Assembly: GCA_017540605.1 (NCBI GenBank)
Contig: JAFYAS010000026.1
Coordinates: 1-64,000 of the forward strand
DNA: 64,000 nt
From: Lachnospiraceae bacterium
GTDB taxonomy: Bacteria > Bacillota > Clostridia > Lachnospirales > Lachnospiraceae
Direction of reading: 5' to 3'
Shown: positions 3,855 through 30,031 of the stretch, piece after piece
How the letters are laid out: each line of letters starts with the position of its first letter
Position numbering within the stretch: the stretch's first letter is position 1
Position numbers and translations under genes: made by a program
Notes under the pieces: generated by a model
The model's input: only the letters and a program-made list of their open reading frames with translations
The model's database searches: none
Told to the model about the DNA's origin: nothing

Positions 3855-6341
3855 ATGAAAAAGAGATTATTAGCGATCATATTTTTATTAACGGTAATTT
3901 TTAGTAATTATTCCTTTGTATCTGCATCAGATTGCGAGGAAGAGGAATGCGGAGATATAGCAATTGATACCTATGAGGTTTCTCCATATTATTCTGATTC
4001 AGTTATCAAGTTTCAATATGGAATCACAGAGAATTCATCCAAATGGGATCCTCGTCCTTATGGGCTTGTTTCTTCTGTAAAAAGTCAAGGCGAACTTGGT
4101 CTTTGTTGGGATTACGCAATCCAAGCATCTGCCGAAAGCTATCTTATAACCCACAATATTGCCTCTAATACAATAGATCTTTCAGAATTGTATTGTGCAG
4201 CATGTTATTATTCAAATAATAATTACGACAAAACTTTTAAAGAATGTTGTATAGACAATCCGGGATATAATGAAGTTCAATATGTAAGAAGTACAGATGA
4301 TTTAATTTATCTCGCTTTAGAATCTAATTATCCATTAAAAGATAATCCTAAAGAAGATGATATTACCGCTCCACCCGCAGATCTTTCTAATTATTCTTAT
4401 AAGATTAATAGGGCTTATAAAAAATCTCCGGCATTTATAAATGATATGAAAAACGCCATAATAACTTATGGTGGAGGGGTTGTAAGTTTCTTTACAAATG
4501 CATATACTGGTTTTTGTATTAATACTGATGATAATAAAGATAACTATCTTGACTATTTTCCGTCGTTTGAATCTGCAACCGGTGGTCACGCAGTAGAGGT
4601 GGTCGGCTGGAATGATAATTATAAAGATGGAAAAGGGTATTGGTTGTGTAAAAACAGTTGGGGAAAGGATGATTATAAATCCGGATATCTTTGGATACCA
4701 TATTCAGCAGTATTTTATGATTCTGTCTTTTTTGAAGTAATCCCCGCAAATAAATCAATTTCAATTCAAACTTCAAACATTACTGTTAAAGTAGGAGAAA
4801 GTATAGATATTAGGAACTATATTCCTGCTTGTGAAGATATTGGCACAATAGGTACAGAATTAAAAAAAGTCTCAGATTATATTTATATACCTCAATATCC
4901 CGGAAATCAAGAAATATATGTTTATGAAGAGGGTCAAGACAATTTAATAGGTGTTATAAATGTAACAGTTCCCGCCTACATACCGATAAAAAAAGAACTT
5001 ACTCTTTATTATAAGGACGAAACTAAAACTGAGATAAATAAATATCTTCCTGCCAATGTAAAAGTATACGAATACGAAGGTAATACTAGTTCATGGATAT
5101 ACGGAACAAGAGTTATCAATGTATATGGCGGAGATTGTTCTGACAGGAAGTTCAAACTCGGAGAATTTACAGTAAATATCCTCCCCAAGACAGAACTTAC
5201 TACAAATGCAAATAAAACCCACATGTTTACCAGTTCTGTAAAAGGAAATTATCCTATAGATGCTATTCTTGATGATCATAGTGTTATAGAAGATTGTGAG
5301 GTAACAAGTAATAATCTTGATGTAGCAACTATCACATGGGGAGATAAGAGGTTTCTTTATCAGCTTAAAGGTTGTGGAGAGACAAAAATCACCGTAACTC
5401 ATAAGAGTACCGGAAAGAAAGCATCATTTACCGTAAAAGTGACTCAGACTGCTCCTACACTTGATCTTACCATTTATAAAACTGAAATAAAGGATAATGA
5501 AACAACAAGCATTTGGTACAATAGTAATAAAAGTGATGTTACTTGGGAATCTTCAATCGGATCTCTTAAAAATTATGGTGGAGACGGTCTTGCAACCTAT
5601 GTGATGTTCTTTCCCGGAACTGTTACTGAAAAGACCGATGCAGTTATAACATTTATCATACCCGGTACAGATGTGAAAAAGAGTGTAACAGTAACAGTAA
5701 ATCCTACCGTGGTTACACCGGCTGTAGATCCTTCATCAAACGTTACTCCTGCTGTTACCCCTGTTGTCACACCTGCAGTCAATCCTACACCAATCGTTAC
5801 TCCTACACAAAGCGTTGTACCAACGACTACCAATACACCCGAATATGATGTTATGCCGCCTATCGCACCTAGGACTTCTGCCACCAAATCAGAGCCCGGT
5901 GGAAAATTCACTTATAAGGATGCCACTATAAAACTCGATATAGCAAATAATGGCTTTACAGTATATGGTGGAACAAGTATTCCAAAGACTTATGTAGCAT
6001 ATCAGGGTACCTCAAAGGAGACCAAACTTTATGTAACAACAATCGGTAAGAATGCATATAAGAACTCAAAGATTAAGACACTTACTATTCCGGATACTGT
6101 CACTGAGATAAAAGATGGTGCATTTGCAGGTAGCAAGATAAAGAATATCATAATTCCAAAGAGTGTTAAAAAGATTGGTAAGAACGCATTTAAGGGATGT
6201 AAAAACCTTAAATCAATAACCTTTAAGGGAAAAACAACTCTTGTAAAGAAGAGTGGTATTGCAAAGACCGTTAAGGTCACAGTACCCAAGAAATTCAAGA
6301 AGATCTATCAATGTGCACTTAAAGGATATAAAATAAAGTAA
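3855..6341 (+). CDS. Secreted papain-family (C1A) cysteine peptidase with BspA-type LRR tail
   Basis: Start ATG 3855 follows AAAAAAAGGAG; the longer upstream frame has no ribosome-binding site. The 828-aa product begins with a signal peptide (MKKRLLAIIFLLTVIF...VSA). The peptidase domain spans about residues 60-300. Its Cys84 lies in QGELGLCWDYA, His245 in GGHAVEVVGWND and Asn267 in CKNSWG, which is the complete papain triad. Next come Ig-like/Big2-type beta segments (about 300-620) and a Pro/Thr/Val-rich stalk made of VTPAV-like repeats. The C-terminal region has BspA-type leucine-rich repeats (TLTIPDTVTEIKDGAFAGS, IIIPKSVKKIGKNAFKGC). It is a probable secreted or wall-associated protease acting on host or plant protein. 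It shares its orientation with the secreted protein that follows 15 bases later. Confidence 0.88.
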   Translation: MKKRLLAIIFLLTVIFSNYSFVSASDCEEEECGDIAIDTYEVSPYYSDSVIKFQYGITENSSKWDPRPYGLVSSVKSQGELGLCWDYAIQASAESYLITHNIASNTIDLSELYCAACYYSNNNYDKTFKECCIDNPGYNEVQYVRSTDDLIYLALESNYPLKDNPKEDDITAPPADLSNYSYKINRAYKKSPAFINDMKNAIITYGGGVVSFFTNAYTGFCINTDDNKDNYLDYFPSFESATGGHAVEVVGWNDNYKDGKGYWLCKNSWGKDDYKSGYLWIPYSAVFYDSVFFEVIPANKSISIQTSNITVKVGESIDIRNYIPACEDIGTIGTELKKVSDYIYIPQYPGNQEIYVYEEGQDNLIGVINVTVPAYIPIKKELTLYYKDETKTEINKYLPANVKVYEYEGNTSSWIYGTRVINVYGGDCSDRKFKLGEFTVNILPKTELTTNANKTHMFTSSVKGNYPIDAILDDHSVIEDCEVTSNNLDVATITWGDKRFLYQLKGCGETKITVTHKSTGKKASFTVKVTQTAPTLDLTIYKTEIKDNETTSIWYNSNKSDVTWESSIGSLKNYGGDGLATYVMFFPGTVTEKTDAVITFIIPGTDVKKSVTVTVNPTVVTPAVDPSSNVTPAVTPVVTPAVNPTPIVTPTQSVVPTTTNTPEYDVMPPIAPRTSATKSEPGGKFTYKDATIKLDIANNGFTVYGGTSIPKTYVAYQGTSKETKLYVTTIGKNAYKNSKIKTLTIPDTVTEIKDGAFAGSKIKNIIIPKSVKKIGKNAFKGCKNLKSITFKGKTTLVKKSGIAKTVKVTVPKKFKKIYQCALKGYKIK

Positions 6342-8933: not shown

Positions 8934-9974
8934 ATGAACTTAATTGGAAGAAAAAAAGAACAATATGAGCTTGAACAATGCGTATCATCAGAAAGGCCGG
9001 AATTCATGGTAGTATATGGTAGAAGACGTGTTGGAAAAACATATTTGATAAAGGAATACTTCAATAATAGCTTTTCATTTTATGCGACAGGTTTATTGAA
9101 TGAAAGGACTCGTGGTCAGTTGAAGGCTTTTAATGAATCGTTGCTTAAATACGGAGATGATATTAAAGCTATTCCCAAGGATTGGTTTGAGGCATTCAGA
9201 AGACTTCGTGAAATATTGGAGAAAGAAGATGTATTGAGGGATGCGGTAAGTGGTCGAAGAGTAATATTTCTTGATGAGGTACCATGGATGGATACTGCAC
9301 GTTCTGATTTCAGATCGGCGTTGGATTATTTTTGGAATAGCTTTGCTTCTTCACAAAAGGATATTCTCTTGATAGTATGCGGTTCGGCGACATCATGGAT
9401 CATCAATAACATCCTCTTTGATAAGGGTGGCTTTTACAACAGGATCACGAGGCAGTTAAGGCTTGATCCATTTTCTTTGAATGAGTGCGAAAGCTTTTTT
9501 AAGCACAATGGTTTTTCATACACTCGTAAACAGATAATAGATGCATATATGGTCTTTGGGGGAATTCCGTATTATCTCAATCTGTTTGATAAAAGACTTA
9601 GCCTTGTTCAGAATATCAACAATCTTGTGATCGATCCGAGAGGACAATTGCATTATGAATATGAACATCTCTTCAGTTCATTATTCAAAAAGCCCACAAG
9701 TCATTTAAAAGTAATATCTGTTCTTTCCGAACACAAGTGGGGAATGCTTCGAAAGGATATCGTGAAGAAGACGGGGGAATCTGACGGAGAGGGACTTACT
9801 AAAGCATTACGAGAGCTTGAAGAATGTGGTTTTATCAGAAAATATAAGAATATTACAAAAGAAAAGCAGGGTTTCTTTTTCCAATTGATAGATCCTTTTG
9901 TTCTGTTTTCACAGTTTTATTTAAAAGATGAAAAACTTACCGATTGGGAACAATTTTACAAATCATCAGCTTAG
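8934..9974 (+). CDS. AAA ATPase (archaeal-type ATPase / DUF234 family), truncated by TAG
   Basis: ATG 8934 follows GAAGGTGG with good spacing; GTG 8922 is in frame but lies inside that site. The protein starts MNLIGRKKEQ and has a Walker A motif GRRRVGKT around residue 30, a Walker B RRVIFLDEVPWMD, and a sensor-like VCGSATSW. A winged-helix segment follows (LRKDIVKKTGESDGEGLTKALRELEECGFI). The frame ends at TAG 9972-9974 just after WEQFYKSSA, before the C-terminal DUF234 nuclease-like region that normally completes these roughly 470-aa proteins. Family members are often multicopy, and their function is poorly defined. The truncated form keeps the ATPase core but loses the C-terminal domain. 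Confidence 0.8.
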   Translation: MNLIGRKKEQYELEQCVSSERPEFMVVYGRRRVGKTYLIKEYFNNSFSFYATGLLNERTRGQLKAFNESLLKYGDDIKAIPKDWFEAFRRLREILEKEDVLRDAVSGRRVIFLDEVPWMDTARSDFRSALDYFWNSFASSQKDILLIVCGSATSWIINNILFDKGGFYNRITRQLRLDPFSLNECESFFKHNGFSYTRKQIIDAYMVFGGIPYYLNLFDKRLSLVQNINNLVIDPRGQLHYEYEHLFSSLFKKPTSHLKVISVLSEHKWGMLRKDIVKKTGESDGEGLTKALRELEECGFIRKYKNITKEKQGFFFQLIDPFVLFSQFYLKDEKLTDWEQFYKSSA

Positions 9975-10355
9975 TACTCGTGGAGAGGAAATGCATTTGA
10001 GATTGTTGCATTGTGTCATGTTCCGCAGATCAAAAAACGTCTTGAGATATCCGGTATATCAAGTGAGGAGTATTCATGGAAAAGTGATAGGATCAAAGAC
10101 GGTGCACAGATAGACCTTATCATAGACAGAAGAGATGATATTATGAATATCTGTGAAATGAAATACACTGATGATGAATTTGTGATTGATTCTAAGTATG
10201 AAAAGGAATTGAATCACAAAGTAGAAGTCTTCAGAAATGAAGTGGGATCTAAAAAAGCACTTCATATTACGCTGATAACAGTAAGCGGTTTAAAGAAAAA
10301 TGAGTATTCGGAGGTTGTGCTAAATGTGATAACCGGAGAGGATCTCTTTATCTAA
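9975..10355 (+). pseudogene. DUF234 C-terminal remnant of the ATPase gene
   Basis: The sequence after the TAG stays open in the same frame to TAA 10353-10355. It reads YSSWRGNAFEIVALCHVPQI, then YSWKSDRIKDGAQIDLIIDRRD and NICEMKYTDDEFVI. This is the expected DUF234 / PD-(D/E)xK-like end of the ATPase family, with conserved GNAFE, QIDLIIDR and EMKY motifs. Together the two parts give a 473-codon gene of normal family length. The break is therefore a single nonsense codon, not a frameshift. Confidence 0.8.
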
Positions 10356-28073: not shown

Positions 28074-28161
28074 CGAACGTTCGTTTGACGAACTTTTGTT
28101 CTGATATGCATTATAACGAACAGTTGTTCGTTTGTCAAGAGAAAAATCGAATATTTGTTCT
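28074..28161. promoter_or_regulatory. LexA (SOS) operators between yneA-like gene and lexA
   Basis: The Gram-positive LexA box has a GAAC-N4-GTTC core. Exact cores occur at 28089-28102 (CGAACTTTTGTTCT) and 28117-28130 (CGAACAGTTGTTCG). One-mismatch versions occur at 28074-28087 (CGAACGTTCGTTTG) and 28148-28161 (CGAATATTTGTTCT). The 28117 box lies between the -35 (TGTCAA on +, 28133-28138) and -10 (ATTATA on +, 28110-28115) of the minus-strand promoter. The 28148 box lies just upstream of the lexA promoter. Confidence 0.88.
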
Positions 28162-28272: not shown

Positions 28273-28884
28273 ATGGCAGGAAAGATCAGTGATAAGCAGT
28301 TTGAGATTCTTGAATATATCAAATCATGTATCATCAAGAAAGGTTATCCACCGGCAGTCAGAGAGATTTGCCAGGCAGTTCATCTAAAGTCTACATCATC
28401 AGTTCATTCACATTTAGAAACCCTAGAAAAGAACGGTTATATCAGAAGAGATCCAACAAAGCCCAGAGCTATCGAGATACTTGATGACGAATTTGGACTA
28501 ACAAGGAGAGAACTTGTGAATGTTCCCATAGTCGGAACGGTTACAGCCGGTCAGCCTATTTTAGCTGTTGAGAATATAGAAGGATATTTTCCGGTTCCGC
28601 CTGATTATCTGAGAAATAAAGAAAGCTTTATGCTTAAGGTCCGTGGAGAAAGCATGATCAATGCAGGAATATTTGACGGTGATCTTGTTTTAGTTTCTGA
28701 ACAAAAAACTGCGAACAATTCTGATATTGTAGTTGCTATGATAGATGATTCAGCTACAGTAAAAAGATTTTTTAAAGAAAAGGATCACATCAGATTGCAG
28801 CCTGAGAATGATTTTATGGATCCCATTATAGTTGATAATTGTACGATACTTGGTAAGGTAATTGGCTTATTTAGGACATTTTAG
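28273..28884 (+). CDS. lexA: LexA repressor
   Basis: ATG 28273 ([13 protein letters not shown]) with a TTGAGG ribosome-binding site gives a 203-aa protein of normal LexA length; the open frame to 28132 runs through the operators and promoter. The N-terminal winged helix has [23 protein letters not shown]. The self-cleavage site is Ala-Gly in [10 protein letters not shown]. The catalytic Ser is in [14 protein letters not shown] and the Lys in SATVKRFF. It represses the SOS regulon and is autoregulated through the adjacent boxes. Confidence 0.96.
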
Positions 28885-28894
28885 AGGAATTTGC

Positions 28895-28944
28895 CGCGGG
28901 AGAGCATTGTATAGGTCTATATACAAACATTCGCGAAACCCGCG
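28895..28944 (+). terminator. Nested hairpin after lexA
   Basis: CGCGGG (28895-28900) pairs with CCCGCG (28939-28944), followed by TTTT. Inside lies TTGTATA/TATACAA (28907-28913 and 28920-28926). It may terminate lexA transcription, and its right edge abuts the dif-like sequence. Confidence 0.45.
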
Positions 28945-28973
28945 TTTTACGAAAAAATATAAGATTATTATTG
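28944..28973. other. Candidate dif-like recombination site
   Basis: The stretch GTTTTACGAAAAAATATAAG and the following GATTATTATTG resemble the streptococcal/lactococcal difSL site as I recall it, with about 20 matches over 26 positions. The site ends about 11 bases before the XerS-like gene. In streptococci difSL also lies directly upstream of xerS. AT-rich sequence makes chance resemblance possible. Confidence 0.4.
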
Positions 28974-28984
28974 TAGAATTATTT

Positions 28985-30031
28985 ATGGAAAACAAAACTT
29001 ATCATCAACAACAAGATATTAAAAACACATTACTTCTACGTGAAGTTTTAGCTGAACTCCCACCATATGTGAAATCTTATTTTAGAGGTATTGAGAATCG
29101 CACAAGTACCTCCACAAGACTTGGATATGCCAGAGATATTCTGAGTTTTTTTGAATACATGCACGAATACAATCCATCACTTAAGGGCAAAGAGATCCGG
29201 TCCATTACATGTGGTACATTGGAGCAACTGTATGCGGTTGATTTTGAAGAATATCTTGATTATATGAAATATTATAAAAAGGATGGTCGTGAATATACCA
29301 ATTCCGAACGTGCATTAAAACGTAAATTAGTTGCCATCAGAGGACTTTTTTCATATCTTTTTAAGAATGATCAGATTTCAAGCAATCCTACTGAGAAGGT
29401 TGATATGCCAAAGATTCGTGAAAAAGCTATCATCAGGATGGATGCAAAGGAAACAGCTGAATTCCTTGATAATGTTGAATATGGGAATCAACTTACCACA
29501 AGTCAGCAAAAGCGCCATGAAAAGAACAAGGATCGAGATCTTGCTCTCCTGACACTTATGCTTGGTACGGGTATCCGTGTTTCCGAATGTGTAGGTCTTG
29601 ATATCAATGATGTTGATTTTGACAATGATCGTATCAAGGTCACTAGAAAAGGCGGCTATGAATCTTTTGTTTATTTTGGTGAGGAAGCCAGAGAAGCTTT
29701 GCTTACATATTTAGAAGAACGAAAAAAGGTAGTTGCAAAGGAAGGTCACGAAAATGCATTGTTCTTAAGTAATCAGAACAGACGCATCACTGTTCGTTCC
29801 GTTGAATTGTTGGTCAAGAAATACAACATCACTCCCATGAAAAAGATTACGCCTCATAAGCTTCGAAGCACCTACGGTACAGCTCTTTATCAGGAAACTG
29901 ATGATATTTATCTGGTTGCTGATGTACTTGGCCACAAGGATGTGAATACCACCATCAAGCACTATGCTGAGCTTGATGATTACAGAAAGAGAAATGCCAG
30001 GAATAAGGTTCAGCTACGCGAAAAACCATAA
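28985..30031 (+). CDS. XerS-like tyrosine recombinase
   Basis: From ATG 28985 the protein is 348 aa. The ribosome-binding site is poor, and the open frame reaches back to 28862, so the start is uncertain. The N-terminal SAM-like core-binding domain spans about 10-165. The catalytic domain shows Arg in LGTGIRVSECVGL, Lys in TRKGG, His/Arg in PHKLRSTYG, His in LGHKD, and the nucleophile Tyr in TIKHYAEL. NKDRDLALLTLMLGTGIRVSE and the 348-aa length resemble XerS, the single dif recombinase of streptococci, more than XerC/XerD. Chromosome-dimer resolution is therefore plausible. A phage or transposon integrase is less likely because no mobile genes adjoin. Confidence 0.82.
   Translation: MENKTYHQQQDIKNTLLLREVLAELPPYVKSYFRGIENRTSTSTRLGYARDILSFFEYMHEYNPSLKGKEIRSITCGTLEQLYAVDFEEYLDYMKYYKKDGREYTNSERALKRKLVAIRGLFSYLFKNDQISSNPTEKVDMPKIREKAIIRMDAKETAEFLDNVEYGNQLTTSQQKRHEKNKDRDLALLTLMLGTGIRVSECVGLDINDVDFDNDRIKVTRKGGYESFVYFGEEAREALLTYLEERKKVVAKEGHENALFLSNQNRRITVRSVELLVKKYNITPMKKITPHKLRSTYGTALYQETDDIYLVADVLGHKDVNTTIKHYAELDDYRKRNARNKVQLREKP

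Follow-up and report, generated by a model that had tools for sequence, protein, structure and literature searches.

The tyrosine recombinase encoded at 28985-30031 and the dif-type site at 28927-28956 very probably form a single-recombinase Xer/dif system for chromosome-dimer resolution, with site binding and recombination as its predicted activities. Both lie on the + strand of the window, the 64,000-nucleotide stretch of Lachnospiraceae DNA that we analysed. The enzyme is linked to a unique site at the replication terminus, neither XerC nor XerD is found in the assembly, and traces of insertions are seen at the equivalent sites of relatives. According to published accounts, chromosome dimers are resolved by XerC and XerD in most bacteria, with XerS, XerH, XerA and XerL as the exceptions (PMC3025954; PMC5357621; PMC8138268; PMC2731167; PMC9765430; PMC6813254). 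An earlier note on this DNA had proposed a XerS/dif system outside the streptococci. The XerS-related enzyme, the linked terminus site and the lack of a XerC/XerD pair bear this out, but the enzyme is not XerS itself.

The recombinase and its lineage

The listed open reading frame spans 28862-30031; the likely start is the ATG at 28985, which gives an intact tyrosine recombinase of 348 amino acids. XerS is its best curated family, in line with the resemblance recorded in the earlier note, and the quoted sequence NKDRDLALLTLMLGTGIRVSE is present as stated. The score against the XerS equivalog model NF003462 (221.4 bits) is below the cut-off of 267, and those against XerC (TIGR02224; 166.7 bits, cut-off 335.15) and XerD (TIGR02225; 150.6 bits, cut-off 329.6) do not pass either. 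A Pfam search found the catalytic domain PF00589 and a SAM-like core-binding domain only, with no arm-binding domain. Arg198, Lys222, His291, Arg294, His317 and Tyr327 are invariant in an alignment of 14 orthologues; we take these residues to be the catalytic set by analogy with XerD. The AlphaFold model (mean pLDDT 83.7, pTM 0.57) has a Xer/tyrosine-recombinase fold and matches the structures of XerA, XerH and XerD. Domain packing in the model is poor, and therefore the large rmsd values are uninformative beyond the fold. The closest named relatives, identified via the protein family, are Lachnospiraceae with up to 67% protein identity. The host assembly consists of 2.85 Mb in 64 contigs and is 94.8% complete.

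At E ≤ 1e-60 the recombinase is detected in 285 of 296 genomes of the family, mostly as one strong match each. Among 61 relatives that include other families of the order, 58 match at E ≤ 1e-20, a looser threshold at which some non-orthologous Xer matches are counted. A tree of 74 rows places the 20 rows of the Lachnospiraceae type, the window's included, in one clade (100/98). This clade is joined first by four rows of the class and phylum samples (97/91), next by eight XerS rows (99/94), and lies apart from XerC and XerD. The Lachnospiraceae-type clade is the sister of XerS and is not nested within it. Because it joins the XerS rows but stays separate from them, it represents a lineage that is related to XerS and distinct. 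The tree covers XerS, XerC, XerD and integrase rows, and its root rests on long-branched integrases. Five of 79 proteins were left out (one of 211 residues, one of 261 residues and three short rows of the 300-residue type), and loci L147 and L243 contributed no open reading frame to the set. A clade of ~310-residue Xer proteins (L145, L149, L151, L153, L154, L156 and L160) stands beside the XerS superclade. It is possibly another single-recombinase lineage; in its families, some sampled genomes match XerD only weakly.

The dif-type site and the replication terminus

Loci were oriented by the recombinase and scanned for conserved non-coding sequence. A 30-bp near-palindrome emerged across them, typically CTATTCGCAAAA-CACAAG-TTTAACGAATAG. 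In the window it ends 28 bp ahead of the recombinase ATG and reads ACATTCGCGAAA-CCCGCG-TTTTACGAAAAA on the + strand, two inverted 12-bp arms flanking 6 bp. The left arm (28927-28938) and its palindromic partner, the right arm (28945-28956), are the putative recombinase-binding elements, and the centre (28939-28944) is the likely region of strand exchange. The centre varies among species; the AAA before it and the TTT after it are constant in all 87 distinct sites. Among the 11 nearest loci, the 30-mer is kept and the flanking sequence has diverged. The window site scores 25.2 bits at 28927, or 20.6 bits with its own row left out of the model, and differs from the consensus at outer positions.

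With duplicates removed, 112 of 191 distinct genes have a site above 17 bits, located upstream in 110 cases and downstream in two. Where 5 kb or more of upstream DNA was available, the site was found for 52 of 68 genes, with none above threshold for the remaining 16. Several loci below threshold (L170, L188, L193, L194, L037 and L110) bear related palindromes with other outer letters. The scan omitted L007, L021 and L025, which duplicate longer stretches, and L129, an uninformative stretch; in none of the loci scanned was there a second site. A model trained on just 55 loci found the site in 57 of 80 named loci, upstream in 55, and in one of 400 shuffled loci; the training and test loci may have some species in common. 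Since most of the outer letters do not vary, covariation between the arms is modest (532 complementary outer pairs, compared with a mean of 509.7, sd 5.8 and maximum of 526 in 300 shuffles).

The 24-bp core has one exact match in its own genome, and the sole other match within three mismatches has three; the shuffled window gives a mean of 0.07 matches. With up to one mismatch allowed, 17 of the 21 single-contig genomes each have just one match to the site pattern, and it precedes the gene by 58-12,175 bp. Across loci the distance between site and recombinase is 52-5,953 bp, including loci where lexA is not a neighbour. One locus (L329, genome G003) has XerS-related genes in tandem (5226-6239 and 9059-10096), 3.6 and 7.4 kb downstream of one site. 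Upstream of the six XerS genes of the large-genome family f54 (L133-L138), no such dif-like site was seen by eye.

The earlier note had announced a dif-like site upstream of the gene, at 28944-28973, and had likened it to the streptococcal difSL. Such a site exists and is conserved in relatives, but those coordinates are off by 17 bp and in the wrong register: the relatives' model gives -33.1 bits at 28944 and -15.1 bits at 28945. The 28944-28973 register was rejected, since conservation in relatives falls on 28927-28956. The stretch contains the right arm alone, set against the streptococcal left arm. The comparison was made with the streptococcal-type site of L131, which lies upstream of a XerS gene and contains the published difSL arms (PMC5357621). 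Agreement at 28945 is real, at 19 of 30 positions, and shuffled versions of the 104-bp gap attained this value 13 times in 2000, but it is out of register; in register, at 28927, only 15 of the 30 positions agree.

The window covers the terminus of its chromosome, with gene direction and GC skew switching near 29-31 kb. Across the whole 179,667-bp contig, which starts with the window, GC skew changes at the site from +0.170 on the left to -0.148 on the right, and the cumulative skew peaks at a distance of 2.2 kb from it. The + strand carries 98% of the coding DNA to the left of the site, and the - strand 95% of that to the right. All 21 single-contig relatives have a dnaA that could be located, and the recombinase was placed in 20 of them, G227 being omitted since its recombinase could not be placed. 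The distance between recombinase and dnaA is 0.383-0.500 of the chromosome (median 0.481; 18 of 20 genomes at 0.43 or more; Kolmogorov-Smirnov test against uniform, p = 9e-15). The outlier is G057, where the gene is located at 0.383 from dnaA, not 0.5. The ftsK gene, with its gamma domain, likewise lies toward the terminus in 20 single-contig relatives, often less than 100 kb from the recombinase.

The recombinase sits between lexA (28273-28884, + strand), a neighbour outside the system, and a glycosyltransferase-like gene named by eye. It directly follows lexA here, as the earlier note had pointed out, but this order is absent in the relatives compared. Among 52 named relatives with long flanks, 31 have lexA no more than ~6 kb away from the recombinase: in 22 it is downstream in the same orientation and in nine upstream in the opposite one; none of the 52 has the arrangement of the window. 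Three repeats upstream of lexA, at 28074-28083 (CGAACGTTCG), 28090-28101 (GAACTTTTGTTC) and 28118-28129 (GAACAGTTGTTC), resemble the LexA-box consensus. In addition, CCGCGGG at 28894-28900 could pair with the site centre CCCGCG (28939-28944) and the T run that follows. This pairing is perhaps a lexA terminator that overlaps dif, and it is not conserved in the centres of relatives.

Partner recombinases and the proposed mechanism

The earlier note had asked for a search for a XerC/XerD pair. In the 94.8% complete assembly of the window genome, the XerC and XerD models gave no match at E ≤ 1e-60, and a search with a subfamily model returned only the window recombinase and weak mobile-type matches. 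It is conceivable that XerC or XerD falls in an assembly gap, given the completeness and the 64 contigs. At the same E-value, 114 of 119 genomes in a phylum sample have a XerC match and 111 of 119 a XerD match. The XerC model scores above its cut-off in 77 of these 119 genomes, versus none of 150 family genomes. A 300-residue Xer protein, a weaker match, is kept in 91 of 150 family genomes (E ≤ 1e-60). A XerD-clade gene accompanies the XerS-related system without XerC at L271-L275, L277, L282, L283, L286 and L289, and the large-genome family f54 similarly has XerS together with one XerD-type match. The FtsK gamma domain was found in 22 of 22 genomes tested, the window genome among them.

Of the 16 300-residue proteins placed in the tree, 10 are inside XerD, six form another clade and none groups with XerC. 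The retention of XerD-clade proteins in many relatives in which no XerC is seen raises the idea that the XerS-related protein is one half of a pair, having replaced XerC and binding one arm while a XerD-type partner binds the other. Sites of the CTATACGACAAA...TTTTTCCAATAG type, in which the inner arms are unlike, would agree with this. We nevertheless consider such a pair improbable. The window genome has no XerD-like protein, and the sites are of the same kind in genomes with a XerD-like gene (G245, G068 and G241) and without one (G308 and G175). The outer arm positions are largely one sequence, inverted. In the six genomes measured, the XerD-like genes are 0.198-0.455 from dnaA and not focused on the terminus.

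Alternatively, the recombinase could be a mobile-element integrase, from a phage, an ICE or a transposon, which came to lie beside lexA by chance, the upstream repeat being its attachment site. It is a tyrosine recombinase (PF00589), one of four PF00589 proteins in its genome. The rest are integrases of mobile type: two have the Phage_int_SAM_3 domain and one has the Tn916 integrase DNA-binding domain. A mobile integrase is highly unlikely and was rejected on its family-wide distribution, mostly with one strong match per genome, its position in the tree and the lack of an arm-binding domain. The orthologous clade lies with XerS and away from integrases, and the recombinase does not group with the phage/ICE-type integrases of its own genome, a grouping that the earlier note had asked to be checked. 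The terminus placement in the 20 measured genomes also argues against this origin. We give hardly any weight to the 30-mer being a regulatory element (a LexA/SOS box, a repressor site or the lexA terminator), which its location between lexA and the next gene and a vaguely repressor-type inverted repeat (TTCG..CGAA) might suggest, and rejected an SOS box or terminator: there is one close match per genome, the 6-bp centre varies between constant arms, phage insertions break exactly at arm and centre, the site persists at variable distances from the recombinase gene where lexA is no neighbour, and LexA-type boxes sit upstream of lexA instead.

For the single-recombinase system, we infer that the protein binds the site, that FtsK controls the reaction and that chromosome dimers are thereby resolved. 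Two monomers of the XerS-related recombinase would bind the two inverted 12-bp arms of 28927-28956. At division, the septal FtsK translocase would bring the two sites of a chromosome dimer into contact. A two-step strand exchange over the 6-bp centre would follow, carried out by the recombinase with Tyr327 as the nucleophile. This strand exchange would turn the dimer into two monomers.

The system can be compared with known ones. It shares with XerS/difSL of streptococci and lactococci a single tyrosine recombinase of ~350 residues, the lack of a XerC/XerD pair, a site immediately upstream of the gene at the terminus and membership of the same superclade in the tree. In contrast, the protein here scores below the equivalog cut-off and belongs to a sister clade, and its site agrees with that of L131 at only half of the positions in register. 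difSL is described as 31 bp long, its arms being unequal and its centre 11 bp (PMC5357621), whereas the window site has near-symmetric arms and a 6-bp centre. Filing the locus under XerS/difSL proper, as in the earlier note, is therefore not supported. XerH/difH of Helicobacter and Campylobacter also has a single long Xer enzyme, a 6-bp centre and a site that is usually near the gene (PMC2731167). The XerH structure 5jk0 aligns with the AlphaFold model over 261 residues (Z 19.3, rmsd 8.0), but the sequence match is weak (43.6 bits, compared with 70.8 for XerD; phmmer) and the difH arms differ in sequence. In Legionellales, XerL is a single recombinase acting with a dif of long uninterrupted inverted arms, found via an element integrated at dif; dif and xerL are more than 400 kb apart there (PMC9765430), whereas here site and gene adjoin.

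Viruses at the site and implications

When both arms were fixed in a search pattern, at least 120 stretches of IMG/VR matched it, and none matched the reversed control. We examined 80 of the matching viral loci (L335-L414), in slices of up to ~15 kb; four of the 80 carry a XerS-like gene. Inovirus-like elements abut the dif sites of relatives at L338 (1993-7774, 5.7 kb), L385 (2362-8619, 6.2 kb), L360 and L382. L338, L360 and L382 have a gene of the PF05707 family of phage-assembly ATPases (Zot in Pfam), L338 and L382 one for a PF02486 replication initiator, and L385 one for a G2P-type replication protein. A second, half-matching copy of the site is located 5,752 bp away in L338 and 6,228 bp away in L385. 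In both pairs, one 12-bp arm and the 6-bp core are identical (18 of 18 positions) and the other arm differs. With the core permuted, about one match per 80 viral loci is obtained at 9 of 12 arm letters. L396 has sites at 4676 and 6481, the second being a half-matching copy 1.8 kb away; it is weak because the permuted-core control still yields about one match per 80 loci.

The arm and core shared at the ends of the elements in two relatives point to natural recombination at the site. The pattern in L338 and L385 is that expected of filamentous phages integrating at dif. Phages of the CTXphi type integrate at dif with the host XerCD, and the inovirus-like elements here are likewise flanked by dif copies; in contrast to CTXphi, the host enzyme would be the single XerS-related protein, and the comparison covers two viral loci only.

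Tailed phages carry the site as well. Of the 80 loci, 55 encode a large-terminase relative; all 55 have the site on its 5' side, 46 of them within 1.5 kb (48% expected for a random place). In the two biggest viral groups the arms are constant, as the exact pattern demands, while the centre takes 14 forms among 26 loci in one and 11 among 18 in the other. L412 carries an integrase. The copy in the tailed-phage contigs is a perfect dif-type 30-mer, and many of these contigs are apparently from rumen samples. An even bet, in our judgement, is that the host order runs on a single-recombinase Xer system, undescribed in the literature searched, that serves as a standing entry for viruses, with inoviruses and rumen tailed phages that carry a perfect dif copy 5' of the large-terminase gene using the XerS-related enzyme to integrate or to resolve multimers and matching their host by swapping the 6-bp centre.

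Searches of one limited literature collection returned nothing joining XerS or chromosome dimers with Lachnospiraceae, or XerS with Paenibacillus. Wider searches returned reviews on XerS, XerH, XerA and XerL and, among the matches listed, nothing on Lachnospiraceae.

Our analysis provides an exact site and enzyme that are now available for testing. The site could serve as a natural integration site for tools in gut anaerobes that are hard to engineer, it marks the terminus in draft genomes, and through it site-bearing viral contigs could be connected to their hosts. In one large family of gut bacteria, joined daughter chromosomes appear to be separated by one XerS-related enzyme instead of XerC and XerD, and phages appear to enter the chromosome through the dif-type site of the host. 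Across the whole order, these dominant bacteria of gut and rumen appear to have lost XerC and to rely on a single XerS-related enzyme that has its own dif.
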